Of a DNA stretch of 22,244 nt, positions 2,629 to 20,349 are shown one piece after another; the stretch's first letter is position 1; each line of letters starts with the position of its first letter. The stretch is from Basidiobolus heterosporus B8920 (taxonomy: Eukaryota > Basidiobolomycota > Basidiobolomycetes > Basidiobolales > Basidiobolaceae): the NCBI GenBank assembly GCA_000697455.1, contig JNET01034892.1:1-22244 (forward strand), in the 5' to 3' direction. The translations under genes and the position numbers were made by a program. The notes under the pieces were generated by a model. It saw only the letters and a program-made list of their open reading frames with translations, searched no databases and had not been told where the DNA came from.

Positions 2629-4299
2629 CTACTTCTCTTCGGTCTGCGCACGCATCACCTCCAATTCACCAGCCGAAGTATCCAATACCCCCGCCATCTC
2701 AAGGATTTGTCTACTCTGGTTCTTGTTTGCAAGATTGACATTGCCACGACGATTCGCTTCTTGCTCTTCAAATTTCCATTCTCTACCCTGTTGTCGCTTT
2801 GCCTGCTCACCGCCCAGACCGATCACTTCTACCTCAATGATATCGAATTCCACTTGGAAACTGGGTCGGGAGTGTGACAGCATGTACGTGGGGTTGTCCA
2901 ACAGTGGATCATTTACAAACTTTCCTGATTGGAAGGTGTTATCAAAGTAAAGTTGGAATTGTCCAACCTTGCCTCCAAATCCAATGCCTTGTGTCTTATG
3001 ACAGTATGCGTAGCAGTCATTGGAATCGTTTGAGGGAAATACCTCAAACTGTGGTGATAATTCAAATAGCTTACACTCATTCGCACCCCAAAACTGTTTA
3101 GAGAAACGCCAAGGTTCATCTACGTATGCGCCGAGAATTATCTCACTAGATTTGACGATATCGCATTCGGAGGGACCTTCTACCTTGGTCACGAAAGCCT
3201 TGACAAGAAGCAAAGTGGGTCCTGGGTATTTGAAAACCCTAGTTTCAAAACGATTCATGCTATAACCGTGCTCCGAGCCGTTGTATAGAGTATGCCAACT
3301 AACCCCTTGAACCACGGATGATGGAAGGAAAGAAGAGAGTATACAAACATTGCCGAGCTTGAGAATTTCTGAGGAGAAATCAAATTTGGGTAGCATCTCC
3401 TTATTTCCGAATATGTGTCGACCAACTCGTGGTCCTTCGGCTTCACCGAGGTAAAATTTGGCGTAGATGTACGCCCTCCATGCCATCAAAATTTTCGGGA
3501 CATTTCGCTCCAAAAAGTAATCAAATACGGATGTACTTATCATCTCATCGGAAGAAAACACGCTGAAATCGTTGGTGATACCGCGGGCCTTTCGTTGATA
3601 TATTGCCAATTGTGACAACACCAGATCCAATGTTGGCTCGTTCGATGGTACAGTGACCGGCTGGTGAGGTTGGTCTCCTGAAAGCATATCCTGCAGTTGA
3701 TTGGCGAAATAGGTTTTCATGACCCAGAAAGTTCCGGCGAATACATCATATATATTTCCGCAAGAGACTTGAATTTCCTCCCCTTCATTAGTTGGCTCTG
3801 CTAAAGATTCAAAGAAATACTTCATTCTTTCGCTGCATCCACTAGAAAACTTCTTACTTTGCTCGCAGTAAAATACTGTGGAGGTTTTTAAACACTCGTA
3901 TGTCAAACTAGGAGTATCTTTTGTATGTGCGCCTTCAATGATGCTTGGAAGTCTACAAAAGGGACCATATAAAATATGGGGAAGGTTTAATTCTTTAGGC
4001 AACCCAACATACACCTAACATTTCAAAAATAAGCATAATCAGAGATATGAATGGAGTTTTTTTTAAAGATCCTGACTTCTTTGATCCCAGAAAATTACCT
4101 GAAAAACCTCTTCTGGTATAATGTCGACCCCGTTTACGTTCCTTTTCAAACTCTGAAATACTTTAGTAAGCGTTTCCAGCTCTACGGCTGTTAAGTAATC
4201 ATCGGTAGAACAAGCAGATTTGAAATTCCCACAACGACTGGGTATGTTCTCTGGAAGCAACTTCTTTGAGCGATGCTTCTTTGAGTGACTATTTCCCAT
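2629..4299 (-). CDS. RTC5: TLDc-domain protein, Rtc5/MEAK7 family
   Basis: Two exons on the minus strand, 4299-4099 and 4014-2629, with an 84-nt intron (GTAATT...TTAG), encode 528 aa; yeast Rtc5 is of similar size. The N-terminus MGNSHSKK is an N-myristoylation signal (Gly2) followed by a basic patch, as in MEAK7 and Rtc5. The middle is helical and EF-hand-like. The TLDc domain is at about residues 280-460: LYNGSEHGYS, GPTLLLVKA, 'FWGANECKLFEL', then GIGFGG, which is the hallmark of the fold. Family members bind the V-ATPase: yeast Rtc5 sits on the vacuole and promotes V1-Vo disassembly, and MEAK7 is lysosomal and linked to mTOR signalling. A vacuolar-membrane role is therefore likely. The charged C-terminal tail (GGEQAKRQQGREW onward) is typical. 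Exon 2 has no ATG at its start; it begins with Val after the splice. Confidence 0.87.
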
Positions 4300-4827: not shown

Positions 4828-7081
4828 TTACTTGAACCATATAGAACCAGATCCCAACAAGTTGGCATCATCCTCGTAGTCATAACGGTAGGTAAATATT
4901 TCATTGTTCACCGACTCCCGCTCCGTTGCTCCTGTCCATAAGGCGCCGGCACCAAAATAGTCGCTTACACCTAGGTTGTTGCCAAAATTACTTGACCCAT
5001 CGTTGTTGGATATAGTGATTGCATTGAAAGTTGACTCACTCAGTCCAGAGTTAACTCCAATCAGATTAGTGTTGGGCGAAAGTGAAGAAGTGACTGGTGT
5101 ATGAAACGGAATCATACTGATTTCAGGAGAAACGATGAATGGAGATAGATTCTGAGAAAGAGCTTCTGGTGAGGCTATGGTGGCATTTGGAGTGTTGGGA
5201 TGTTGCAAAGGATCTATTGGCGGAATCATCTGTGGCATCGGTGGGTTAAAAGCATTGAATTGGAGATTTCCAGATGGTTGAATGTTCTGTGGTGTCCCGG
5301 CAAAAGGAAGCCCCATACAGCCTGCGTTCTCAGTGTTTTCATTTGGTAAGGAGAGCTGCGGAGTAACTGCTTGTTCTTGAGTTCGTATCAATTGAAGTTG
5401 CTTTAGCTGTTGTAAATTCAAAGAACTCTGCCTTGAAATAGCGACTAGGCTTCTCATCTCATCTATTTGCCCAGATGAAGTGAGTGACTCTTGCGGAACT
5501 GGGTGATTATTTTCCATTGACTCATCAGAGGAAAGTCGACGAGGTCGCTTGTTGGGCGCAACGTGACCGAAGAAGGATTGACCTGAGTTGTTGAGACTCT
5601 CGGTACTGAGTATGTTTTGAGCTATGTTCAGCCTTGGATCGCTAGCATTATTGTTGACTAAATCTGGGGTATGGTTAGTGTCAGAAGAAGCATCCTTTGA
5701 ATTGCTGTTGGATTGGGCTCCTGAGGTATTTCCCGTTGAAGCTCCCTTACTCTCTTTGACTGGGTTTCGATTTCGCTTTTTGATCACATCCGTTTTCAGG
5801 CTGAGAGGTCGAACGACACCATGGAGTTTCAAAAATAGACCACATGCGTTACATAAAGGCTGCCCTCCTTGCGGGTTACGTCTCCATAGCGGAGTTTTGG
5901 TTGTCTTACAATTGGAGCAACTTGGATTCTCACCACTGCTCGATTGTGGGCCCGTATTTCGCTTTGACTTGTTTGTTTTGGGGGCTGAATTGTTAATGGG
6001 CTCAGCCATGTTCATCCTGTTCGCGACATTATGCTCCTCTGGGATTGTTTTGCCAAGTGTCAAGTTTCTTGGAGGCTCAGGAAGGTCTTCAGCAATCTGG
6101 ATGGAAGGAAAAGCCCTCACTACGTTGACTGATGAAGAGCTACTGTTCGTACCAGATGTAAATGGAAAGCTTTTCAGCGAAGAAAAGCTCAACGAATGGG
6201 GCGGCGTAGGAAGAGAGCTTTTACAAGTATCTGAATTCTCGATGCTAGAAAATGGATCCGATCCATTATTATCAGTGTAATAAGAAGGTGCATTGAAACT
6301 ATTAGGCATATTTGCCATGAAGGATGCGTCCCCTTTAGGTACTACGAACGGATTATCCACACTGGAAGGATTCTTTTCTAACAGATTGAAAGTGCTCAAA
6401 TCTGTAGCGCCGCCCTTAGGTTCTGGCTTGGTAAAATTCTTTTCGTGATATATAAAAAAATGTCAGGTTGCATTGTCAACAGTACTTAGAAGGAAATTAC
6501 AATACCAAAATCCCCTTGCTTGTCAAGTAGCTATGTTCGTGAGTAGTGGCACTAAGAGCCAGGGAATTTCCTGTTTGCTTTGTTGAATTGTTATAGTTCG
6601 TTTGTACTAGCTGAGATATTGAGCATTCCTCCTTGGTAATCGCAATCGTATTATTACCGAAAGAGGTGTTCGAAGGCAGAGAGGTCGAGTCTTCTTGTTG
6701 TGTTGAAAAAGATTCAGTAGATTGTTGTGGACTGATATACATGTTATCAGTTTTATTAGAGATTGGAGTAGTGGATTTACTTCTCGATATCCCTTCCTTC
6801 CTATTCTTTAAAGTCATAGCCATCATTCTCCAAGTAAGATTCTCTAAACGCTCACCATTAGGTAGGTTATCTTTAGCTTTCGTGTATAAACGCCATATCT
6901 CGGTAGCCAAGGGGTCTTTTTCTTTGACTTTATCAGAATCGGTTTTCTTTGTGTCAGGTTTTCTTGGCGGGAATAAAGAAGTCGCTAATATAGAAGAGTG
7001 AACACTGGAAATTGAAGTAGTGCTTAGCCGGGTTTGAGGAGGACTCTCAGGTGGAGAACATAATTCAGAACTCCCTGACAT
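4828..7081 (-). CDS. areA: GATA zinc-finger nitrogen regulator, AreA/NIT2/Gln3 type
   Basis: Exon 1 is 7081-6506; exon 2 runs from 6426 or 6438 to 4828 (about 724-728 aa). The donor is GTATTG at 6505; the acceptor is AAG at 6429-6427 or AAG at 6441-6439, both phase 0. Exon 1 carries DUF1752 at about residues 55-95 ([19 protein letters not shown], then [10 protein letters not shown]), diagnostic of fungal AreA-class activators. Exon 2 carries one GATA finger at about residues 362-387 (CSNC...CNACGLF) followed by the basic tail [20 protein letters not shown], which is almost the AreA sequence. The rest is Ser/Asn/Pro-rich and disordered. The family binds HGATAR and activates genes for use of poor nitrogen sources when ammonium and glutamine are scarce. 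The finger loop is C-X2-C-X18-C-X2-C because of NPQGGQPL, where AreA has X17. I do not see the conserved C-terminal motif of NIT2. Confidence 0.9.
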
Positions 7082-7280: not shown

Positions 7281-7330
7281 ATGTATGGTATTGTGTGGTA
7301 TTGTGTGGTATTGTGTGGTATTGTGTGGTA
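7281..7330. repeat. 10-bp tandem repeat (TTGTGTGGTA), four perfect copies plus one degenerate
   Basis: Perfect copies lie at 7291-7300, 7301-7310, 7311-7320 and 7321-7330, with ATGTATGGTA at 7281-7290 as a decayed copy. It lies in the divergent promoter about 200 nt upstream of the GATA gene and is likely length-variable by replication slippage. Confidence 0.95.
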
Positions 7331-7510
7331 TAATTCAAATCAAGTCAGTATATGATTGTGGTGTATGGAGTATGGTTGATTGCTAGTAGAATTAGAGTCA
7401 AAGGTTTACCAGAACTAACTTCGGTGTCAGGGGATATTGCAAGTTATAGCAGAATACGTACGCAAGATAAACCCCTTTTGATTGACTCCACATTCAGGGT
7501 GACTACTGAA

Positions 7511-7546
7511 GTACGCTCACTAGTACGCTCACTAGTATGCTCACTG
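7511..7546. repeat. 12-bp tandem repeat, three copies
   Basis: GTACGCTCACTA is repeated at 7511-7522 and 7523-7534, with a two-mismatch third copy GTATGCTCACTG at 7535-7546. It lies 110-150 nt upstream of the TPR start codon and contains overlapping ACTAGTA palindromes. Confidence 0.93.
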
Positions 7547-7657: not shown

Positions 7658-8065
7658 ATGAGCGATAATTTACCTGTCGATGCTCTTTTACAAGTGAATA
7701 TATTTTCCAACACCGCCTTAAAGTTGCGACAAGAGGGAAAGCATAAAGAAGCGATCCATTTGTTTGCCAAGGTTACCTCAATCCTAGAGAATCTGCCGAA
7801 TAAATCTCAATTGACAATGGTACGCCAAATACATGCCGATGCTTATTGGAACCTTGCTACGGCATACTTAGAAACGGGAAATATAGCCAAAGCAGAATTC
7901 ACGTATAACCGTTGTTTAGATCTTAGAAAGAGTCCTTCGAAGGCTCAATTAGAAGTGCTCGAAAAATTGGTTCAGGTCTATGGCCTATTAGATAAGAAAG
8001 AAATGGCCAGAAATCTAACAAAGAGAATGGAGAAAGTCGAAGCCATGTTGGCATCGGAAGTATAA
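7658..8065 (+). CDS. Small tetratricopeptide-repeat protein
   Basis: Starting at the ATG at 7658 (MSDNLPVDALLQ) this encodes 135 aa in one exon. Two helix pairs have TPR spacing: about residues 14-47 (NTALKLRQEGKHKEAIHLF) and about 62-97 (AYWNLATAYLETGNIAKAE), the latter a near-canonical TPR with W-L-G-Y-A-type positions; a third, weaker pair follows (LEKLVQVYGLLDKKEMA). There is no signal peptide or membrane segment. TPR proteins are adaptors, so the partner cannot be named from sequence. The frame is open upstream to 7352, but that extension reads through the 12-bp repeat and lacks TPR character, so the first ATG next to the TPR part is preferred. It is divergent from the GATA gene. Confidence 0.75.
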   Translation: MSDNLPVDALLQVNIFSNTALKLRQEGKHKEAIHLFAKVTSILENLPNKSQLTMVRQIHADAYWNLATAYLETGNIAKAEFTYNRCLDLRKSPSKAQLEVLEKLVQVYGLLDKKEMARNLTKRMEKVEAMLASEV

Positions 8066-8394
8066 GTGGTTTATTTCCTTGATTTTGCTTATTATTAAGC
8101 CAGCTTGTATATCTCTCGATAGTTGTTTAAGTGCCAACTTAACTGATTTTATGAAATAAAAATCCTTGTTTCTTTTTGGCGTTTACTGATTTCTATTCAT
8201 GATTGGTTTTTCCAACAAAACTATCATTGATACATGCTTAAGTTTTGTATTATCTTTAGCTAAAGGCACCTACATTTCTATTTGTGTGTCGTCCATTGAA
8301 GAAGCAAATAGGTCTCAATACCTGTTTACGAGCTGACCTTTTCATATTAGCAGCGTATTATTCTTGCTTCCAGGTAGATACCCAACATAGCGAA
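8066..8394. other. Spacer between the TPR gene and SET9
   Basis: 329 bp between tandem plus-strand genes, AT-rich. ATGAAATAAAAATCC near 8150 contains an AATAAA signal for the TPR gene. The SET9 reading frame happens to be open upstream to 8284, but residues before the ATG at 8395 have no family resemblance. Confidence 0.45.
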
Positions 8395-11300
8395 ATGAAG
8401 TTGGAGACATTGGCCAAGTACGATGATTTACTTAGTGATGTATTGGTTGATTCTTTGTTTCTTTGGTTCCGAACCCACAAAATGAACCAAAATCGACGTT
8501 CAGCTAGGGTTAAGGTTGAGGATATAATTGAAATAATTCGGGATAACATCGTCACTAAAAAATCCATAGAATCTGCAGTTCAAAGATTATTAAGGTATGC
8601 TTTACTCTCAATGCCATCATAAAAGCTGTCATCGATATATTCGAATTGAGAATTACTAAACGACCTTTAGTCTTGATTATATAAAGATTTTCCTTCGAAG
8701 AAAGAGTGTTAAAGATACACAGGGCTTTATTGAGTACGTAGCTTCGTTAAAGAGATGATGGTCATTCTTCAACGTAATAACTCACATTTTACTCAGTCAC
8801 TCAAAAAGATATCTTTCAATATATCACCCAGATGCAGGTTTCGAGATTAGTCAGACACACCGGTATAGAACCAGCAAAACAGAAGCCTCTGTGTTAGCAA
8901 CTAGACGCTGGGAAGTTGGAGAGGAGATTCGATGCTGTAGTGGCGGGATAGCTATATTGACCGAAAACGAGTTGCAAAATTTGGAAAAGAGAAAGATGGA
9001 CTTTAGTGTGATGTGGTCTAGTAGAAAAAACAGCAATTGTCTCTTTTTAGGCCCAGCACGCTTTGTAAATGTAAGTTAATTGGAGAGTTCTTCTACCGTT
9101 GCTTACGTATGCTGAGAAGCATCTTCAACTAACCTTTCCATGATTTTAAATATCTCATATCTTAGCATGATTGCAATTCCAACTGTGAGGTAAGTCTCTT
9201 TGTATATATTTTGTATATATCGTAAGCCCTTTTTTGACTTGGCAAAAGTTTGAGCCTTTTGGGCCGGATGGGATATGTCTTAAGGTAGTCAGGCCTATTG
9301 AAATTGGTGAAGAGATTACCACGTATTATGGTGGAAACTATTTCGGCAACAAAAACTGTGAATGCCAATGTGCTACATGCGAGAGGTACTAAACAAAAGG
9401 ATAACCAATATCGATATTTTAACTAATGAGCTCGACGGGTTAACTAGAGTGGGCGAAGGTGCGTTCAAACCGACTATCGAGAGTATTCTAGAAGAAAACG
9501 ATCAAGAGCACAGCCGTAGAAGAAGCTCGCGTAAACGCAGTTGCAAGAGTAAGAGGCTGAGGCCTATTGTACCTTTGATACAACCGGTATACTGACAAAG
9601 GGATTCTTTTAGCCAGCTATACCAATGTCATATCTACGAGAACCGTTGCTCATCATCGGTATGATGGGGAACAAGCTTTACGAGACAAGTATGGTATTCT
9701 CTATGAGCTTTTAAAGGACCAGGATGGCTCTTTTGTCCATGATGTGAATATCTTGGGTCTTACGAAGCTGCCCAAGTCAATTGGCTTAGATAAAGTAGCG
9801 GCTATAGCAACTGGATCAAATTTACTCGGGCAAATTATGAAGCTAATGAATGCCAACGGTTTTTCCGACAAGGAAAAATCCGAGAATAGCGTAAACGAAG
9901 ACGATTCTGGTCCCTCTCTCTCTCAAATCCTCGATACCATTAGAGTGTATACCATCGTTTGCTCGGTCTGTCGATATATATGGATTGACGATGCCCTTCT
10001 TTCCGGCGATCCGACCATTGTGTGCGCGAGAGAGCTCAAGGGGATTCATGCTAACGATATGTGCCCACGATGCGAGCGGCATGAAAATATTTTTGGTATC
10101 AAGTGGCCAGAGAGAATACCCGTAATGCGCTTATTGAGCGAACCTAACCAAGTAAGCATTCTTTATCAGGTCTTGGGAATCGCGCGAATTACGATTGACA
10201 TGGTTTTAGGATGCGTCAGAACTTAAAGATGCTAATGAAAACAATATAGACGGTGACCCCAAGACCAAAACCGAGAACGCCCATGAAACTGCAAAGAAGC
10301 CCAGTACTGGTATGGTGTTTCGCGAATATCTATTTCTCTTATAGCTAATGTTACTTACTCAAGTACCCATCTCAGGAACAAAGCGTCGTGGTACCCTTAA
10401 GACATCAAAAGAATGTGCTAGTTTGACTAACAAAAGAGCCAATGGCCTTGTGGAAGAAAGCTCGGCAGAAGCCAGAAAGAGATCCAAGATCTTGAACTCA
10501 TCAACACACATGCAACACGAGCCTAAACTTGACTTAAACTCTGAGTTAACTGAGAAGCAAGCCTTAGAAATTACTCACGAAACAAGTAATTATAACCTTA
10601 TATTAATATTGAGTATGCCGCAGAGAGTAACAATCCGAAGATTTTCCAGACAGTAATAGTGAAGCGTCTGAAGCACCAACCTACGAGTCAAGCTCTACTA
10701 CGGATATATCCGAATCACATACTCCGAGGGACAATAATCTTGTCGACTCCCCTAAAATTTTCGAGAGCTTAAGTAAACTAGCTCTTGATTTAAAGGAAAA
10801 CAAACTACTGGGAGATGACATACAGCCGGTCAAAAACTTAACATCACAGAATAACCCCAGGCCAAATCCATCAACCGCACAGATGGAAGGCCACTTCTTT
10901 GGGGCTCCCGTGCCAGATTTCACCAAAACCGTAGCAGTTTTTGTCAATCCCTTAGATGATAAAGAGCCTTTCTGGTGGCCAGCCCTACTGGTTCCCACTT
11001 CAGAAACGGACGGATCGATGCGTAAACCGAAGCCTGGACAATATACTCTCAGATACTTTGAAGATGGGACTTACTCTCTATGCCCATCCGAAGAATTCGT
11101 CTTATTTGATCCCACTACCAGACCATTTACCCACTTCAAAAGTCTTTTCCCGGACTTTCTGAATCACGTCGCAGTTCGTCGTGCCATTGCTTTTTTTGAA
11201 ACAGGCCAAGTATTGAATGAAATCAAATGGCTGCACTGGAAGCACAATGAAAACAAGGTAGTTTGTAGTTGAGTTTTTTTAATTCGATTTACAGAAGTAA

Positions 11301-11698
11301 CATTCTTCGGCTGTTAATCTAGCCTTTATCACGACGTAGACATGAAGGTAAGACTGGTTGCTAGAGTATCTTGAGAGCAATTACTAATACGTTTGATGTG
11401 ATAGATGTTGCTATCATAAAAACGTACATGTGCATGGTCGGAGACGAGATCCAAGTGATCGATTCCAAATACCCAGCAAAATCATGGAAAGCCATAGTAA
11501 AAGGGGTCGAATTCTTAAATAACGAGAAGTACAAAGGGTTCCATTATTACGTGCATTATGCAAGAGCTAGCACAAAGTAAGTGGTAACAAAAATCTAAAC
11601 TCTTTGTTTATACTAATCTTTTTCTTTACCGCCACAGTCAGGATGAATGGATTCCCCCAATTCGTATTGCACATTATTATCAACGCAAAGCTCAATAG
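8395..11698 (+). CDS. SET9: Set9/Suv4-20 histone H4-K20 methyltransferase fused to an ARID4-like PWWP-type domain and chromo-barrel
   Basis: Thirteen exons: 8395-8594, 8671-8733, 8797-9070, 9166-9189, 9249-9385, 9448-9548, 9613-10151, 10210-10309, 10376-10585, 10650-11257, 11323-11347, 11405-11576, 11638-11698 (2514 nt, 837 aa; all phases close). The N-terminus MKLETLAKYDDLLSDVLVD is Set9-typical. The SET domain is at about 95-230: LFLGPARFVN|HDCNSNCE (NHxC core), GEEITTYYGGNYFG, and post-SET CECQCATCE. A Set9-specific zinc motif is at about 383-425 (CSVC...CPRCERH, then GIKWPERI). About 450-625 is low-complexity linker. About 628-752 matches the RBB1NT/PWWP-like domain of ARID4 (FWWPALLVP, YTLRYFEDGTYSLCPSEEF). 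About 768-830 is a chromo-barrel (VGDEIQV, YYVHYARAS, DEWIP). The SET part methylates H4 Lys20; the last two domains are predicted histone readers. The linker exons are the weak part of the model; a second gene starting inside them is the alternative. Confidence 0.85.
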
Positions 11699-11782
11699 AC
11701 TTTGGTTCATTCATTGAATCATTTTGTAATTTTATAGTTTTCTATTCTGTTTCTAGATTTTGCGCCCACTGTTTGATTATAT

Positions 11783-11796
11783 TTAGGGTTAGGTTA
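11783..11796 (+). repeat. Telomere-like motif (TTAGGGTTAGGTTA)
   Basis: Two contiguous TTAGGG-type units (the second is TTAGG-) lie about 85 nt after the SET9 stop. The same motif recurs in the NAA50-CBS spacer. Confidence 0.6.
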
Positions 11797-12111
11797 TATA
11801 CACATGAGGTTATACACATATAAAGAACATATATATTTACAATTCCTAGGATAGGTCAAGTTATATCTACAGTGTAGAGTAATGAGCAATAGTATACTTG
11901 TCTAAAATTTCCCCGGCATAAATCACTTCAGTGGTTGAGAATAGTTGTAATGATACATAACTTAATATATCCTGCGTATCATTTGTGACTGTATATGACG
12001 AGCATTGTCAGTGGATAATTAGATCTGACGTGAGCATTCATCAGAATTACATTAAAACTATGCTTGTGTTGTTTTTAACGATCTAACCACGTAATAGGCC
12101 TTGTAGCATTG

Positions 12112-12137
12112 GGGAGATTGAGAGATTGGGAGATTGG
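12112..12137. repeat. Short imperfect tandem repeat (GGGAGATTG)
   Basis: GGGAGATTGA, GAGATTG and GGAGATTGG follow each other, about 120-145 nt upstream of the SMP gene's ATG. Confidence 0.8.
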
Positions 12138-12205
12138 TGTAAAGCACTAAGCACAATTCTTGTGATATCACTGCTATGTCACCTTGTTAGAAGATACTAC
12201 GTCCG

Positions 12206-12213
12206 TATATAAG
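12206..12213 (+). promoter_or_regulatory. TATA box (TATATAAG)
   Basis: TATATAAG lies 53 nt upstream of the ATG at 12259, a close fit to a TATA box with a short 5' leader. A strong TATA suits an inducible stress- or spore-type gene; the induction itself is inference. Confidence 0.6.
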
Positions 12214-12258
12214 AGCAACGTTTGTGAACATTTCATATTACATTTCAAAGTTGTAACT

Positions 12259-12615
12259 ATGGACACTCATCCTTTCGACAAAGACCCTTCCCAAATCACC
12301 AAAGCTGAAGCCTCTGAAGCCCAGAGACAAGCTGGCGACAACCACCGCGCCGGCTCTATGAGCACCCATTTACAATCTCAAGCCGATAAAAATATGCACA
12401 CTGTCCTGACTCGCGCTGATCAGGGCCGTGGTGAAGGCCCTGATCAAGGAGTAGGCGATGTTGGTATGACTGGTGACGTTGCTACCGACATCACAGTATC
12501 AGCACCCACCGGAGAAGTCACCACCGGGCACATCGAGGTTGGTGGAAACGAAATACCTAAGCCTGGCACAGGCCGCCAACCTACCAAACATCAAGGAGGT
12601 TCAGGACACGTCTAA
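12259..12615 (+). CDS. Seed-maturation-protein (SMP/LEA) domain protein
   Basis: One exon from the ATG at 12259 gives 118 aa. Residues about 8-45 (ITKAEASEAQRQAGDNHRAG, then SMSTHLQSQADKNM) match the SMP-type LEA motif: acidic/Ala helix, a Gly-rich turn, then a hydrophobic-poor 'QSQADKN' end. The rest is hydrophilic, Gly/Thr/Val-rich and probably disordered (GVGDVGMTGD, TGEVTTGHIEVGG). There are no Cys residues, no signal peptide and no membrane segment. LEA-type proteins protect proteins and membranes during drying; in fungi such genes are usually linked to spores or stationary phase, so that role is inferred. The frame is open upstream to 12184, but the TATA box lies inside that stretch, which supports the ATG at 12259. 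Confidence 0.72.
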   Translation: MDTHPFDKDPSQITKAEASEAQRQAGDNHRAGSMSTHLQSQADKNMHTVLTRADQGRGEGPDQGVGDVGMTGDVATDITVSAPTGEVTTGHIEVGGNEIPKPGTGRQPTKHQGGSGHV

Positions 12616-12773
12616 GAAGTCAATCAAAGTCGATCCTTGTAAAGATTAAAGCATAAATCAAAAGTCAAATAAAAAATCAATCAATCCACTTCACTGTCAT
12701 AGCTGCTGATATACTTTGTTCTGTCCCATCAGATTTAACAGCCTGGAACAATCTTTGGAAGTCAGATACAAAC

Positions 12774-13364: not shown

Positions 13365-14602
13365 ATGGGTTATTACACGTACTTCTTAGTGGGGGGAATG
13401 CTGCTCACCGGTACACTGAACACACTGCTAAATAAAATCCAAGATAAGCAATGTGTAGAGAATTGTGACGATCCCGATCCTTCAAAGCATCAATTGTTTG
13501 AACAGCCAGTATGGCAAACGTTGAACATGTTCATCGGAGAGGCTTCGTGTCTTCTTGCCTTCTACTTTATCAAGCTATCCCACAAACATCGAAATGCGAG
13601 TCAAGGCTATGAAGAGATTCCAGGCACTAGTACGCCTAGAGCAACTGAAGAAGATGTGGATGGCGATGACAGTTCTGTTATTAAAAAACGACTCTCCTCA
13701 GCTCAACCCTCAACTGAGCCTCTGGAGGGTTGGAAGACCCTTTTGATGTGGCTACCTACTCTATGTGACATTTGTGGAACCACCGTAAGTTAATTGAATG
13801 TTTGGTCTATTTTATATGATGGTTGCTAAGTATGGTTTTTATGTAGCTAATGAATGTTGGCTTGATCTATATCTCAGCATCAATTTATCAAATGCTTCGT
13901 GGAGCTGTTGTGCTATTTGCCGGGGTTTTCTCAGTCATCTTCCTGAAGCGTAAACTGCATATGTATCAATGGTTCTCGTTGTTTTTGGTAGTTCTTGGTG
14001 TCTGTATTGTTGGTGCTAGTAGTATCTTATTCCCGGATAATACACCTGGTCAACACCCAGCGGTGAATGCGTCGTTCATCGGAATATTTATGGTTCTGTT
14101 TGCGCAAATCTTTACCGCATCTCAGTTTGTCATAGAAGAAAAGGTTCTGCACAGATACCATATCGTGCCTGTCAAAGCAGTTGGTTTAGAAGGAGTTTTT
14201 GGCATTGTTTCCTTATTTCTCGGAGTTCCAATCCTCTACCTTCTTATCGGTAAAGGAACCAAAGGGTACTTCGATATTCCTGTCGGATGGAATCAAATCA
14301 TTAACCATCCTCCTGTTTTGATCTCTGGTGTGTTAATTGCATTAAGCATTGCATTCTTCAATTGGTTTGGATTGTCGGTTACACGTACAATTAGCGCCAC
14401 TTCAAGATCGACTATTGATACATGTCGTACCTTGTTTATTTGGATGGCTAGTCTATCGTTAGGATGGGAACAATTCAGGTGGTTGCAAGTTGTTGGGTTT
14501 GTTGTTTTAATTTATGGCACTTTCCTATTCAACGGTGTAGTCTCTCCACCCTTCTGCAAAGCAGATGTTTCTGAATCAGCTGCTGCACAAGATGAAGCGT
14601 GA
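13365..14602 (+). CDS. SLC35F6: SLC35F6-type multi-pass transporter (drug/metabolite transporter superfamily)
   Basis: Exons 13365-13784 and 13847-14602 join across a 62-nt intron (GTAAGT...GTAG) to give 391 aa; human SLC35F6 is similar in length. The order of motifs follows SLC35F6 closely: N-terminal 'GGMLLTGTLNTLLNK', then LFEQPVWQTLNMFIGEASCL, LPTLCDICGTT|LMNVGLIY, YQMLRGAVVLFAGVFSVIFL, 'QFVIEEKVLHRY' with VKAVGLEGVFG, and ISATSRSTIDTCRTLFIW near the end. About ten membrane helices are visible; a hydrophilic acidic cytosolic loop (about residues 75-120) is longer than in the human protein. The intron falls at the end of the GTT/GTS motif. The family is nucleotide-sugar-transporter-like; the human protein is lysosomal/mitochondrial and its substrate is not settled, so no substrate is assigned. 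Confidence 0.9.
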
Positions 14603-14981: not shown

Positions 14982-17203
14982 ATGCTCTCTTTACTTGGTT
15001 GAAGTCATTGATAATTCTTTTGTTTAGCAAGCAATATACACTTACATTTACCTTGATCCAGGATTAAAAGGGGTTTATGTACCCAGACCCTCCATCGCTA
15101 CATCCGTTTTTCGGCAGGCTACATCACCCTGGACTACCACAAACCTCAGGGCCAGATATGCCACTCCGAAACGGTTCGTAACCTCAGTCGGGAAAAGTCA
15201 AGGTAAGCTATACCTATTTACAGGCAACTTTCATAACTCCGTAATAACCACAGCCTCGCTATGACAGGAAGAATAGTTGTTTTGGGTATTCAATTCTGTT
15301 ACTTTGTAACTTTACCGTTCCTCTCCTACTAAACTGTTTCGCATTACCTTCCATCTATTCTTCATTGGATCCATTTACCTTCAAGGATCTGGTTGGGCAG
15401 GTGAGACTTAAGTTTCCAAATTCACCTGGAATGACGCTGTCACTAAAAACTACGACACTTGTTAATTGAAAAGGCTTCAAGATACTGAAGAAGATCAACA
15501 AAAAAAAATACGACGTGCATGTAGTTTCACCAAGAAATTACTTTGTATTCACCCCGTTGCTTGCCAGTACTTCAGTTGGTACCTTGGAATTTCGATGTAT
15601 TCTTGAGCCAGTAAAACAGCACGCGAAAGAAGCAACATTTTACGAAGCTTGGTGTGACAAAATCGGTATGTCCACACATGTCCTAACCCTCTCCCTTTCA
15701 AACCAAGTGATTAATTGCGTTACGTTAGATCTCGAAAAAAAACAAATCCTTTGTACCAGTAACTTGGGCGATAAAAACGACAAGTTCGTACTGGATTATG
15801 ACACCTTGGTCATTTCCGTTGGAGCTTATTCCAACACCTTTAATGTTCCCGGGGTTAAGGAAAACGCTTTATTCTTGAAGGATATCAACGACGCAAGAGC
15901 CATTCGCCATCGAGTTATCGAGCGTAAGTGATTTTTTGAAACGCCCATATGATCCTCCTTTGACCCTTCATTGTAAATAGGCTTTGAACAAGCGTCACAA
16001 CCTGGAACATCCGAAAAAGACCAGCTAGCATTGCTACATTTTGCAGGTAACTAGAATGATAGCACGATATGATTCTTCATGCTAACATGAGCCATTTTAG
16101 TGATCGGAGGCGGCCCCACGGTAAGTCACATGCGGACCGGATGCAGAAATAGATGGCCAATTAATTCTACTTTCCTCAGGGAATTGAGTTTTCTGGGGAA
16201 TTACACGATTTCATCTCCGACGATATTTCTAAACTTTATCCAAACCTGATAGACAAAGTACAAATGACAGTCTATGATGTGGCTCCTAAAATTCTCTCGA
16301 GCTTCGATGAAACATTAGGGAAATATGTAACCAAGCGTTTCATGAGGAGAGGGATTAAGATTCAAACGGGCACAGTAATCGAGGAAGTGCGGCCGCACTC
16401 AATCATGATCAAAGACAAGGGTGAAGGTAACCCTTTCCCTAGCACTAGTACTAGCACTAGCACTTGATGGTATTTAACCTGCATTCTAGAGCCTACTGGT
16501 CTGGTTGTTTGGGCCTCTGGTATGACAGAAAACCCCCTAATCGGTGCCATGGAAGGCCAAGCAGCAAAAGACAATCGAAAGCGATTAGTGACCGATCGTT
16601 ACTTACGGGTATTGGACCCGTCTAGTAATGCTCCAATCAAGGATGTGTAAGTAACGAATCCTCCCATAGCTTTGACCTGTGCGAGAGGACTCATTTTCTA
16701 TCAAGCTACGCACTAGGTGATTGTGCTACCATCCAGGATTTTGATTTACCAGCGACCGCCCAGGTCGCCAAGCAAAAAGGTGACTACCTAGTCAAAGGTA
16801 AGAAGAGTTGTTGGCACACTCCCACTCGTTCATACACTGAAAGATTGCTTGTAGCATTGAACAAAGTCGCGAATGAAGGAACAACTAGTGCTTGGAGTAA
16901 GATCAAACCGTTTGATTACCAGCATATCGGCAGCATGGCTTATGTTGGTGGATGGAAAGGTTAGTCTCATAGAGTGGACCAGTAGCCTTTAGCATAGAGT
17001 GCTTACTAACGACTGGCCGGCCTTTAGCAATCATTGAGCTCGGATCAGACAAGAAAAATGAGATCAAACACGCTGGGTGGCTGTCTTGGTTGTTTTGGAG
17101 ATCAGCATATTTCACTATGAGTGTATCAAATAAGAATAAGGTGCTGATTCCCATGTATTGGTTCTTGACTTGGATATTTGGTCGAGATATCAGTCGATTT
17201 TAG
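14982..17203 (+). CDS. Mitochondrial type II (alternative, rotenone-insensitive) NADH dehydrogenase
   Basis: Exons 15062-15202, 15268-15285, 15386-15400, 15474-15923, 15981-16046, 16101-16120, 16180-16426, 16490-16646, 16706-16797, 16855-16959, 17028-17203, plus a tentative first exon 14982-14997; this totals 1503 nt (500 aa) in frame. FAD site RIVVLGSGWAGFK (about residues 54-66), then YDVHVVSPRNYFVFTPLLAS; NADH site VIGGGPTGIEFSGEL (about 236-250); YALGDCAT; and the C-terminal membrane-binding end FGRDISRF. The N-terminus (about 50 aa, Arg/Ser/Thr-rich, no acidic residues) looks like a mitochondrial presequence. The enzyme passes electrons from NADH to ubiquinone without pumping protons. 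Matrix or intermembrane facing cannot be told. The first exon is the weak point: its donor would be GTTGAA, and the ATG at 15077 is out of frame. Confidence 0.88.
16441..16464. repeat. 6-bp tandem repeat inside an NADH dehydrogenase intron
   Basis: AGCACT, AGTACT, AGCACT, AGCACT lie head to tail within the 16427-16489 intron, upstream of the acceptor. Confidence 0.9.
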
Positions 17204-18860: not shown

Positions 18861-18885
18861 TTGAGGTTATCTCTCGTAATACACG

Positions 18886-20349
18886 ATGACCGTTTCCAAC
18901 GAGCTCCGAATTCTTGACAATATTCTTGAGAATATTGGCAATACCCCTCTTGTACGCGTTAACAAAATTGCTGCATCTGAGGGATTGGAATGTGAACTCT
19001 TGGCTAAATGTGAATACTTCAACGCTGGTGGTTCGGTTAAAGACCGTATCGGAAAACGTATGGTTGAAGAGGCTGAGAAAGCTGGTATCATCAAGCCTGG
19101 ATATACAATTATTGAGCCTACTTCCGGTAACACTGGAATCGGTCTTGCTCTGGCTGCTGCTGTCAAAGGTTATCGAGTTATTATTACTCTTCCCGAGAAA
19201 ATGTCTCAAGAGAAGGTTGACGTTTTGAAGGCTCTAGGTGCTGAGATTATCCGTACTCCTACTGAGGCCGCCTGGGATGCTCCCGAATCTCACATTGGTG
19301 TCGCCAGACGTTTGAACAAAGAAATCCCCAACAGTGTCATCTTGGATCAATACGTCAACCCCAATAACCCAATGGCTCATTATGAGGGTACCGCCGAAGA
19401 GATCCTTCGTGCTTGTGACGGTCAAGTAGACATGATCGTTGCTGGTGCTGGTACCGGTGGAACCATCACCGGTATTGCCAAAAAGATCAAGGAAAGATGC
19501 CCCAATGTTGAAATTGTTGGTGTTGATCCTTTCGGTTCTATCCTTGCTGTTCCAGAATCCTTGAACGAAACTGATATTACCAGTTACAAGGTAGAAGGAA
19601 TTGGATACGATTTCATCCCTGATGTCCTTCAACGCGAGTATATCGATACTTGGGTCAAGAGTAATGATAAGGACTCCTTTATCATGGCTAGACGCCTTAT
19701 CAAGGAAGAAGGTCTCTTATGTGGTGGCTCTTCTGGTACTGCTATGGCTGCTGCCGTCAAGGTAGCCAAGAAACTTAAGGCTGGTCAGCGTTGTGTCGTT
19801 ATTTTGCCCGATTCAGTTCGTAACTACATGTCTAAATTCTTGAATGATGACTGGATGAAAGAAAATGACTTCTCTGACTCGGTTAGTCAAAAGGAAGAGC
19901 GCAAACAAACTGAAAAATGGGGCGGTGCTACCATCAAGGATTTGAACTTGCCAGCTGCTGTCACTGTTCAACCAAAGACTACTTGCCGTGAGGCTTTGAG
20001 TGTTATGGAGAAGAATCACTTTGACCAACTTCCAGTAGTTTCCGAAACTCAACGTGTAATTGGTTTAGTCACTATGGGTAACATCCTCTCGAAAGTTAGC
20101 TCCGGTAAAATCACCGGGGATACAGTAGTCAGCGAAGTAATGTTCAAATTCACCACCGTTGGAAAGGACTTCTTCGAGATTTCAGTCAACACCCCACTTT
20201 CGGAGATGTCCCGCTTTTTCGAAACAAACTCATCAGCCATTGTTACCGAGCGTGTAGTTGATGCCGAAAAGATCTCCACTGCTGAGCTAAAAGTATTACA
20301 TGTTGTTACTAAGGTCGACTTGTTGTCCTGGTTGATGAAGCAATTGTAA
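18886..20349 (+). CDS. CYS4: Cystathionine beta-synthase
   Basis: One uninterrupted exon of 487 aa, close to yeast Cys4 (507 aa). The PLP-dependent fold-type II core spans about residues 8-340: INGTPLVRV-like start (IGNTPLVRV), FNAGGSVKDRIG with the PLP lysine at Lys52, TSGNTGIGLA (substrate/PLP loop), GAGTGGTITGI (phosphate-binding loop) and GGSSGTAMAAA. Two CBS (Bateman) domains follow at about 365-487 (FDQLPVVSETQRVIGLVT; VLHVVTKVDLLSW). It condenses serine with homocysteine to cystathionine, the first step of transsulfuration to cysteine, in the cytosol. There is no N-terminal heme domain, as in yeast and unlike mammals. It differs from its intron-rich neighbours by having no intron and by a codon use rich in GGT, GCT, ACC and GTC-type triplets, which suggests high expression. 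Confidence 0.96.
   Translation: MTVSNELRILDNILENIGNTPLVRVNKIAASEGLECELLAKCEYFNAGGSVKDRIGKRMVEEAEKAGIIKPGYTIIEPTSGNTGIGLALAAAVKGYRVIITLPEKMSQEKVDVLKALGAEIIRTPTEAAWDAPESHIGVARRLNKEIPNSVILDQYVNPNNPMAHYEGTAEEILRACDGQVDMIVAGAGTGGTITGIAKKIKERCPNVEIVGVDPFGSILAVPESLNETDITSYKVEGIGYDFIPDVLQREYIDTWVKSNDKDSFIMARRLIKEEGLLCGGSSGTAMAAAVKVAKKLKAGQRCVVILPDSVRNYMSKFLNDDWMKENDFSDSVSQKEERKQTEKWGGATIKDLNLPAAVTVQPKTTCREALSVMEKNHFDQLPVVSETQRVIGLVTMGNILSKVSSGKITGDTVVSEVMFKFTTVGKDFFEISVNTPLSEMSRFFETNSSAIVTERVVDAEKISTAELKVLHVVTKVDLLSWLMKQL

Follow-up and report, generated by a model that had tools for sequence, protein, structure and literature searches.

A Set9-type methyltransferase gene of Basidiobolus heterosporus encoding PWWP-like and chromo-barrel domains

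Gene model and domain content

A stretch of 22,244 nucleotides from Basidiobolus heterosporus B8920 (contig JNET01034892.1, the whole of which is called the window here) contains a gene in which a methyltransferase of the Set9 type, predicted to act on lysine 20 of histone H4 (H4K20), is continued by a PWWP-like domain and a chromo barrel (Table 1). The gene model was obtained by splicing the window at GT-AG introns. The reading frame remained open over 13 exons from the ATG at 8395 to the stop codon, yielding 2523 nucleotides (nt) including the stop and 840 amino acids (aa). An earlier reading of these letters, hereafter the original prediction, had also described a 13-exon chain closing in frame, and its exons 9613-10151 and 11405-11576 were recovered exactly; its length of 2514 nt was three codons short. 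Its central claim, a single polypeptide linking the Set9 writer to PWWP-type and chromo-barrel domains, was upheld: the fusion is real and beyond chance.

The SET domain was well above its Pfam cut-off (E 4.7e-11 in the whole protein) and, as predicted, was accompanied by the CPRCERH motif, which together with CSVC forms a region that we take to be zinc-binding. CPRCERH or variants of it occurred in many of the listed Set9 proteins, and the Set9/Kmt5 (SUV4-20) enzymes of fission yeast and filamentous fungi share the same SET domain, NHDC motif, post-SET cysteines and CPRCERH. On these sequence features, and on nearest relatives that are Set9 proteins, the enzyme is assigned to Set9/SUV4-20 (KMT5).

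The C-terminal assignments were closer to the thresholds. PWWP (PF00855) was matched at E 3.3e-4 and 21.5 bits in the whole protein and at 25.4 bits with the domain alone, just under the cut-off of 25.6. RBB1NT, the name originally given to this part, reached E 0.063 and 13.8 bits in the whole protein and 18.7 bits with the domain alone (cut-off 25); hence a PWWP-like domain was correctly recognized but its RBB1NT label was not sustained, even if the RBB1NT match was the longer one in the window (profile positions 10-92 of 94). Among 20 domains of the family compared with Pfam, PWWP matched 16 (best 7.2e-8) and RBB1NT nine (best 1.9e-5). Tryptophan occupied both places of the WWP core in 48 of 50 aligned domains, that of the window included, and the two others were gapped there. 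The chromo-barrel naming held in part, Tudor-knot (PF11717) lying below its cut-off of 20.8 in the whole protein (E 0.0021, 18.4 bits) and above it with the domain alone. At E<=10, the Pfam scan of the whole protein gave no match to ARID.

Writer and reader parts are separated by a linker which, judged by eye, is disordered. For codon log-odds, six further reading frames from the window served for training, against stretches taken as intergenic. In the claimed frame the log-odds were positive for the linker exons (+12.3 for 10210-10309, +8.6 for 10376-10585 and +7.4 for 10643-10879), where no stop occurred, while the two other forward frames had negative values and contained stops.

Table 1. 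Features of the Set9 gene and of the remainder of the window
Feature	Position	Strand	Basis or remark
Whole coding span	8395..11698	+	spliced translation of 840 aa, coding log-odds, homology
Exons 1-7	8395-8594, 8671-8733, 8797-9070, 9166-9189, 9249-9385, 9448-9548, 9613-10151	+	
Exons 8-13	10210-10309, 10376-10585, 10641-11257, 11323-11347, 11405-11576, 11638-11698	+	
SET domain, aa 120-215, NHDC at aa 179-182	8891..9332	+	Pfam PF00856, 43.5 bits versus cut-off 22.4
Post-SET cysteines CECQCATC, aa 224-231	9357..9380	+	sequence
CSVC (aa 383-386) and CPRCERH (aa 417-423), Set9 zinc motif region	9960..10082	+	sequence
Writer-reader linker (exons 8, 9 and start of 10, introns included)	10210..10924	+	partial conservation, coding log-odds
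Conserved linker piece DSNSEASEAP...DISESHTP	10649-10726	+	alignment to Basidiobolus relatives
PWWP-like domain, aa 645-758, spanning intron 11258-11322	10925..11331	+	lineage-only profiles, Pfam PWWP
W661-W662-P663	10973-10981	+	inside PWWP-like domain
RYFED	11051-11065	+	inside PWWP-like domain
PWWP C-terminal extension, LFDPxxRPFxxF...AVRRAIAFFETG...W	11102..11230	+	extension-only profiles
Chromo barrel/Tudor-knot, aa 772-836, spanning intron 11577-11637	11428..11683	+	Kickxellales-only profile, Tudor-knot 23.1 bits
Barrel cage positions W791-Y815-A818-Q822	within aa 772-836	+	cage table
TLDc protein	2632-4014	-	
GATA factor	4831-6462	-	
TPR protein	7658-8065	+	
EamA/nucleotide-sugar transporter piece	13847-14602	+	
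Pyridine nucleotide oxidoreductase	15470-15931	+	
PALP+CBS protein (cystathionine beta-synthase-like)	18883-20349	+	

Relatives in Basidiobolus and distribution among fungi

By sequence comparison, the nearest relatives of the protein are those of other Basidiobolus species. A search with aa 625-840 (338 candidates) returned two matches at E<=10: a B. meristosporus protein of 554 aa (P0001) and a B. ranarum protein of 793 aa (P0002), which bears the name 'histone lysine methyltransferase Set9, variant 2'. P0002 aligned with the window protein from residue 1 across SET, linker and PWWP with 62% identity and gaps in the middle and linker; identity rose to 84% over the 247 columns of the SET region. 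In the alignment of the linker (aa 447-644), P0002 shared 67 of 181 residues with the window protein and P0001 shared 42 of 172, and the piece DSNSEASEAPTYESSSTTDISESHTP was well preserved among the Basidiobolus relatives. A further B. ranarum protein, P0121 (146 aa), shared 113 of 145 residues with the window (78%) from the middle of the PWWP-like domain into the barrel, lending support to the joining of exon 10 to 11 and of exon 11 to 12.

These relatives displayed peculiarities of their own. P0002 stops just past exon 11 with a tail (RRHEGKYFG...) that looks like read-through of the next intron; retention of intron 11348-11404, as this end suggests, would give a Set9 with PWWP and without chromo barrel, and alternative splicing at this place is possible. 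P0121 and P0002 are two differing Set9-type C-termini from B. ranarum, 78% identical over 88 residues, and would represent either two gene copies or two strains. P0001 (K493DRAFT_306585) kept the Set9 middle part, the PWWP-like domain and part of the barrel; the SET domain and CPRCERH are missing. Either a paralogue without SET or a faulty gene model may explain this; the protein is not obviously cut, since its contig measures 61.9 kb.

With P0002 as the query, 8000 candidates were scored and at least 375 matched at E<=1e-5. The best 120 were examined together with the window protein; being the best scorers to a Basidiobolus protein, they are no fair sample of fungi. A profile built from 14 seeds (threshold E<1e-5) detected the PWWP-like domain in 50 of these 121 Set9-type proteins. 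Fourteen of the carriers were the seeds, which match by construction, and the weakest of the 36 others scored 1.8e-9. Carriers comprised 3/3 Basidiobolus, 26/26 Kickxellales, 20/22 Chytridiomycota and 1/3 Mortierellomycota proteins; none were seen in Mucoromycotina (0/23), Glomeromycota (0/2), Calcarisporiella (0/1), Dimargaritales (0/2), Ascomycota (0/33) or unnamed entries (0/6). The NHDC motif of SET preceded the PWWP-like domain in 49 of the 50, P0001 being without NHDC. A barrel profile of 10 seeds matched 34 proteins, always C-terminal of PWWP. The SET plus PWWP-type architecture was thus sought and found beyond Basidiobolus, and, contrary to the original supposition, the fusion is not special to one fungus: PWWP also follows SET in Kickxellales, chytrids and one Mortierella.

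Among the matches listed, the domain of P0032 (Mortierella claussenii, residues 717-834) was the only one outside chytrids, Kickxellales and Basidiobolus; it reads WWI for WWP, and two Podila models had no PWWP. A copy in P0072 (Dimargaritales), apparently decayed by eye, was left out of the count. The chytrid Set9 models P0056 (Blyttiomyces) and P0048 (Dinochytrium) displayed an N-terminal CKS and a C-terminal Ras domain, and are probably merged neighbouring genes.

Profiles trained on a single lineage were tested against all other lineages and against 242 control sequences, either shuffled or reversed; the joint profile had set where the training rows begin and end. With the chytrid-only PWWP profile the window was found at 1.4e-27, together with 3/3 Basidiobolus, 22/26 Kickxellales and the Mortierella protein. 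Likewise, the Kickxellales-only profile found it at 1.6e-25, with 3/3 Basidiobolus, 18/20 PWWP-bearing chytrids and the Mortierella. At E<=10 neither had a single match in the 242 controls, Mucoromycotina or Ascomycota. Conservation extended into a C-terminal extension with the pattern LFDPxxEPFxxF...AVRRALxFLETG...W, common to the Set9-PWWP proteins. Profiles of the extension alone reached the window at 3.5e-11 (chytrid-trained) and 7.8e-14 (Kickxellales-trained). Their reach was limited to four Kickxellales and four chytrids, respectively, and a Basidiobolus-trained one retrieved nine chytrids, 19 Kickxellales and the Mortierella. Searched by itself, the extension matched nothing in PDB at E<=10 and nothing meaningful in Pfam. 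As far as these profiles indicate, PWWP and extension would have been joined to Set9 once, or would have moved as a unit.

The barrel was less widely traceable. The Kickxellales-only barrel profile recognized P0001 besides the window (4.4e-17) and left all chytrids unmatched, and the joint barrel profile had chytrid rows among its seeds. The barrel is therefore regarded as common to Basidiobolus and Kickxellales, and the Tudor-like domain at the C-terminus of chytrid proteins may or may not be the same; homology is not claimed because the lineage-only profiles fail to link it to the others.

A tree of the SET region was built by a quick method from 83 rows; 14 of the 121 proteins lacked the anchor motif and were skipped, and 24 rows from Ascomycota were omitted. 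Kickxellales, Chytridiomycota, Mortierellomycota and Basidiobolus each lay on one side of a branch; Mucoromycotina took two changes and Ascomycota three, unnamed rows lying among them, and the PWWP label took six. Deep branches were weak and at odds with the accepted fungal order, and no root was inferred from them. In that order chytrids branched first, followed by zoopagomycetes, then Mucoromycota and Dikarya. Combined with it, the presence of PWWP in chytrids, Kickxellales, Basidiobolus and Mortierella suggests an ancestral join with later losses, and the join looks ancient because a chytrid-only profile finds the window so clearly.

The other genes of the window close Table 1. Tandem repeats were observed upstream of the TPR gene at 7282-7331 and 7510-7545 (a 10-base unit five times and a 12-base unit three times). 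A small open frame at 12259-12615 codes for a Gly-rich, hydrophilic product without Pfam match at E<=0.001, presumably similar, by eye, to late-embryogenesis or stress proteins. No tRNA genes were found in the window.

Kinship and cages of the reader domains

Compared with solved structures, the PWWP profile matched Pdp1 (2l89, E 0.0027), DNMT3B (5ciu, 0.0028) and ARID4A (2yrv, 0.026), with small margins; the value of 2.2e-8 for 6r3e adds up two copies within a single chain and was not taken as the best match. The P0058 domain alone had one weak unrelated match in PDB, and that of P0001 matched DNMT3B and one other protein weakly. The domain would thus be a PWWP, for which these margins single out no nearest kin. 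For the joint barrel profile, MRG15/Eaf3 (2lrq, 3.2e-11; 2f5k, 2.3e-10) and ARID4A (6bph, 2.3e-10) were roughly level. The window's own sequence found Eaf3/MRG15 and DNMT3B at E<=10, with ARID4A absent.

Several known systems invite comparison. Pdp1 of Schizosaccharomyces pombe, whose PWWP is tied to Set9 function, is the best single-domain match in PDB, level with DNMT3B; this likeness is one of profile match, not orthology, and Pdp1 is a separate protein whereas the PWWP of the window lies inside the enzyme itself. ARID4A/B (RBBP1) likewise combine RBB1NT, a domain of PWWP type, with a chromo barrel; the window protein differs in having no ARID match, RBB1NT below cut-off and a broken cage. 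The available part of PMC8038949 gives ARID4 a Tudor, a PWWP and a chromobarrel domain. MRG15/Eaf3 includes the best solved-structure matches of the barrel (2lrq, 2f5k), aligned without gaps around the last three cage places.

The cage of MRG15, which we take to be Y26, Y46, W49 and W53, served together with that of ARID4A to compare the barrels. All four aromatics occurred in 21 of 21 complete Kickxellales barrels (two further rows were cut), and six of nine chytrid barrels had Y-Y-W-W, the rest being Y-L-W-W, F-Y-M-V and one that was cut. In contrast to Y-Y-W-W in MRG15/Eaf3, the Basidiobolus cages read W-Y-A-Q in the window, W-Y-A in P0121 and F-Y-A in P0001 (the last two cut), with alanine at the place of W49 in all three. 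Because the window aligns gap-free around the last three places, this loss looks like substitution. Methyl-lysine reading by the Basidiobolus barrel is doubtful since two of its four cage positions are Ala and Gln; so is, here, its reading of H4K20me3. For ARID4A itself, whose cage is Tyr-Tyr-Trp-Tyr, binding results conflict according to the accessible portion of a 2022 paper (PMC9077328). Cage positions of the PWWP-like domain were mapped on Y18/W21/F44 of HDGF2 (PMC3119473, available in part) and on known PWWP sequences: W662 was kept, and the place of Y688, the tyrosine of RYFED, held Y or F in 50 of 50 domains.

A standalone Pdp1-like relative was sought with a 14-row alignment among 3507 candidates, shared five-letter words being needed for a hit. 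Three proteins appeared at E<=10, P0001, P0121 and P0122 (105 aa), none of them a separate Pdp1-like relative; P0122 is, by eye, a fragment of a Set9 from a chytrid, similar to P0064. This result is no evidence of absence, because the five-letter-word search also missed domain-bearing Coemansia. In the same assembly (8.1 Mb, 428 contigs, possibly incomplete) a second PWWP was sought and the window alone was found; P0002 gave one extra weak match (contig C382, E 0.0066). Pfam detected no Tudor-knot in this assembly; the search is blind to split domains, since it missed the window's own intron-split barrel.

Function of the fusion and alternative readings

The join itself, its conservation within Basidiobolus and the SET plus PWWP order in Kickxellales, chytrids and one Mortierella are, on sequence evidence, held with very high confidence. 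We consider it likely that the protein is an H4K20 methyltransferase with an in-cis PWWP of the kind that fission yeast supplies in trans as Pdp1. Set9 would carry its reading module in cis, in the order SET, zinc motif, flexible linker, PWWP with extension and chromo barrel. Somewhat less firmly, the PWWP, with W662 and Y688 kept, would bind a methylated lysine as well as nucleosomal DNA and thereby keep the enzyme attached to chromatin. Methylated H4K20 is, by analogy, the likeliest ligand, a choice that we make tentatively; its binding would favour conversion of me1 to me2/me3. An in-cis PWWP could thereby replace the partner and fulfil the same role without Pdp1, while fission yeast would supply this function in trans and the listed Set9 proteins of Ascomycota and Mucoromycotina are without the module. 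The Basidiobolus chromo barrel is probably a structural or nucleic-acid-binding part and not a methyl-lysine reader.

The analogy draws on Pdp1 as described in the available parts of two papers. Through its PWWP it binds H4K20me1, and through its C-terminal part Set9, which is concentrated on H4K20me1 chromatin for trimethylation (PMC3119473); the same PWWP binds H4K20me3 and DNA simultaneously, and mutants of the DNA surface do not restore H4K20me2/3 (PMC6222470).

Several observations weigh against this reading. At the gene level, no transcript of the 13-exon Set9-PWWP gene was seen. Log-odds in the claimed frame were negative for 8797-9070 (-12.4), 8671-8733 (-2.6) and 9166-9189 (-0.3), as well as for the barrel exons 11405-11576 (-2.6) and 11638-11698 (-4.4, stop included), so that these five exons rest on homology; one reverse frame was positive over 10376-10585 (+4.6) and 10641-11257 (+9.1), still below the claimed frame. 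At the domain level, Pfam PWWP at E<=1 appeared in nine of 20 relatives scanned (controls without a PWWP domain included), with only the chytrid protein P0058 above cut-off (28.9 bits), and the chytrid-only barrel profile had no match outside chytrids. At the probable place of the first cage aromatic of known PWWPs, three residues before the second W, the window has Pro659, Phe660 being one residue off. Specificity for methylated H4K20 stays an analogy because DNMT3B matches the profile as well as Pdp1, and the step from cis to trans is one that we infer, given that the search for a separate Pdp1-like relative, of limited reach, found none.

Two alternatives concern the protein itself. Set9 might end near 10226 or 10656, where unspliced frames stop, and a separate PWWP-chromo-barrel gene might start at the in-frame ATG 10883 just upstream of PWWP, the join being a gene-model error repeated in related annotations; the unusual acceptor CCGAAG of intron 10586-10640 and the separately annotated P0121, a fragment beginning inside PWWP, would fit such an arrangement. 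Yet codon use marks the linker as coding, the linker is partly conserved in P0002 and P0001, and SET is followed by PWWP in 49 proteins of four lineages. Separate genes were rejected on these grounds, and we regard them as very improbable. Absence of AATAAA from the + strand of 8161-12667 says little on this point because the true gene end also lacks one. Alternatively, the C-terminal module might be decaying and dispensable in Basidiobolus, in line with the alanine replacing the cage tryptophan in all three barrels, with an annotated B. ranarum P0002 that stops before the barrel and with a B. meristosporus P0001 without SET. Against this, the end of PWWP and the barrel are 78% identical over 145 residues between the window and P0121, which suggests selection, and decay appears rather unlikely to us.

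For the fused protein, the main rival to H4K20me reading holds that its PWWP reads methylation of lysine 36 of histone H3 (H3K36), the usual PWWP ligand, so that Set9 would be brought to H3K36me chromatin in a cross-talk and not in an H4K20 read-write loop. The DNMT3B PWWPs, matching as well as Pdp1, speak for it, as does the coupling of H4K20me3 with Ash1-dependent H3K36me3 in Zymoseptoria (PMC10553808, available in part). However, Pdp1, the studied PWWP partner of Set9, binds H4K20me, and the Zymoseptoria paper, to judge from its title, lets H4K20me3 act on H3K36me3; reading of H3K36me is possible but unlikely. That PWWP and chromo barrel descend together from an ARID4-like ancestor, which would have held them as RBB1NT and chromo barrel, is conceivable, since RBB1NT matches nine of the 20 members, covering nearly its whole profile in the window, and ARID4A barrels are about level with MRG15 on the joint profile (2.3e-10 and 3.1e-10). 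Complete Kickxellales cages, Y-Y-W-Y or Y-Y-W-F with one Y-F-W-F, also resemble that of ARID4A. This ancestry is nevertheless quite improbable, and the ARID4 kinship of the original prediction is not borne out: PWWP outscores RBB1NT in the window, ARID4A ranks under Pdp1 and DNMT3B in PDB and is absent from the window's own matches, MRG15/Eaf3 match the barrel equally well or better, no ARID domain was matched, and the extension alone is without PDB or meaningful Pfam match. The Rosetta-stone logic, by which a fusion betrays an older partnership, applies; it points better to a partnership of Set9 with Pdp1, which the original prediction had also named, than to one with ARID4.

To our knowledge, little is known of fungal proteins working with the H4K20 enzyme besides fission yeast Pdp1. 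A Set9-PWWP or Set9-chromo-barrel fusion was not found described in the listed titles and abstract starts of the open-licence literature, and a description elsewhere is possible. The raw fact is already in databases, because precomputed Pfam columns show the domains for Coemansia and one chytrid. As far as its available text goes, a 2008 survey of Ascomycota gives SUV4-20 proteins a SET domain only (PMC2474616), to which the window protein adds two domains, and a 2023 study, within its accessible part, reports no true Pdp1 orthologue in Zymoseptoria (PMC10553808).

A bolder scenario, which we hold to be rather doubtful, would make Set9-PWWP-chromo barrel the ancestral fungal H4K20 methyltransferase, a self-contained read-write enzyme whose reader was lost in Mucoromycotina and most Dikarya, with fission yeast Pdp1 as a broken-off descendant of that reader, a sister copy of the reader pair in animal ARID4, and Basidiobolus having disarmed one of its two readers. 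Short of this, there is good support for the join between Set9 and its PWWP, which also looks ancient and is of use. Its occurrence in cis across several early-branching lineages constitutes a natural experiment, in which the reader is removable by a single truncation of the fused Set9. Basidiobolus offers a control within the family, its barrel cage being lost where all 21 complete Kickxellales barrels kept theirs. The arrangement predicts a direct link of the PWWP to Set9 activity and offers a possible route for the origin of Pdp1.

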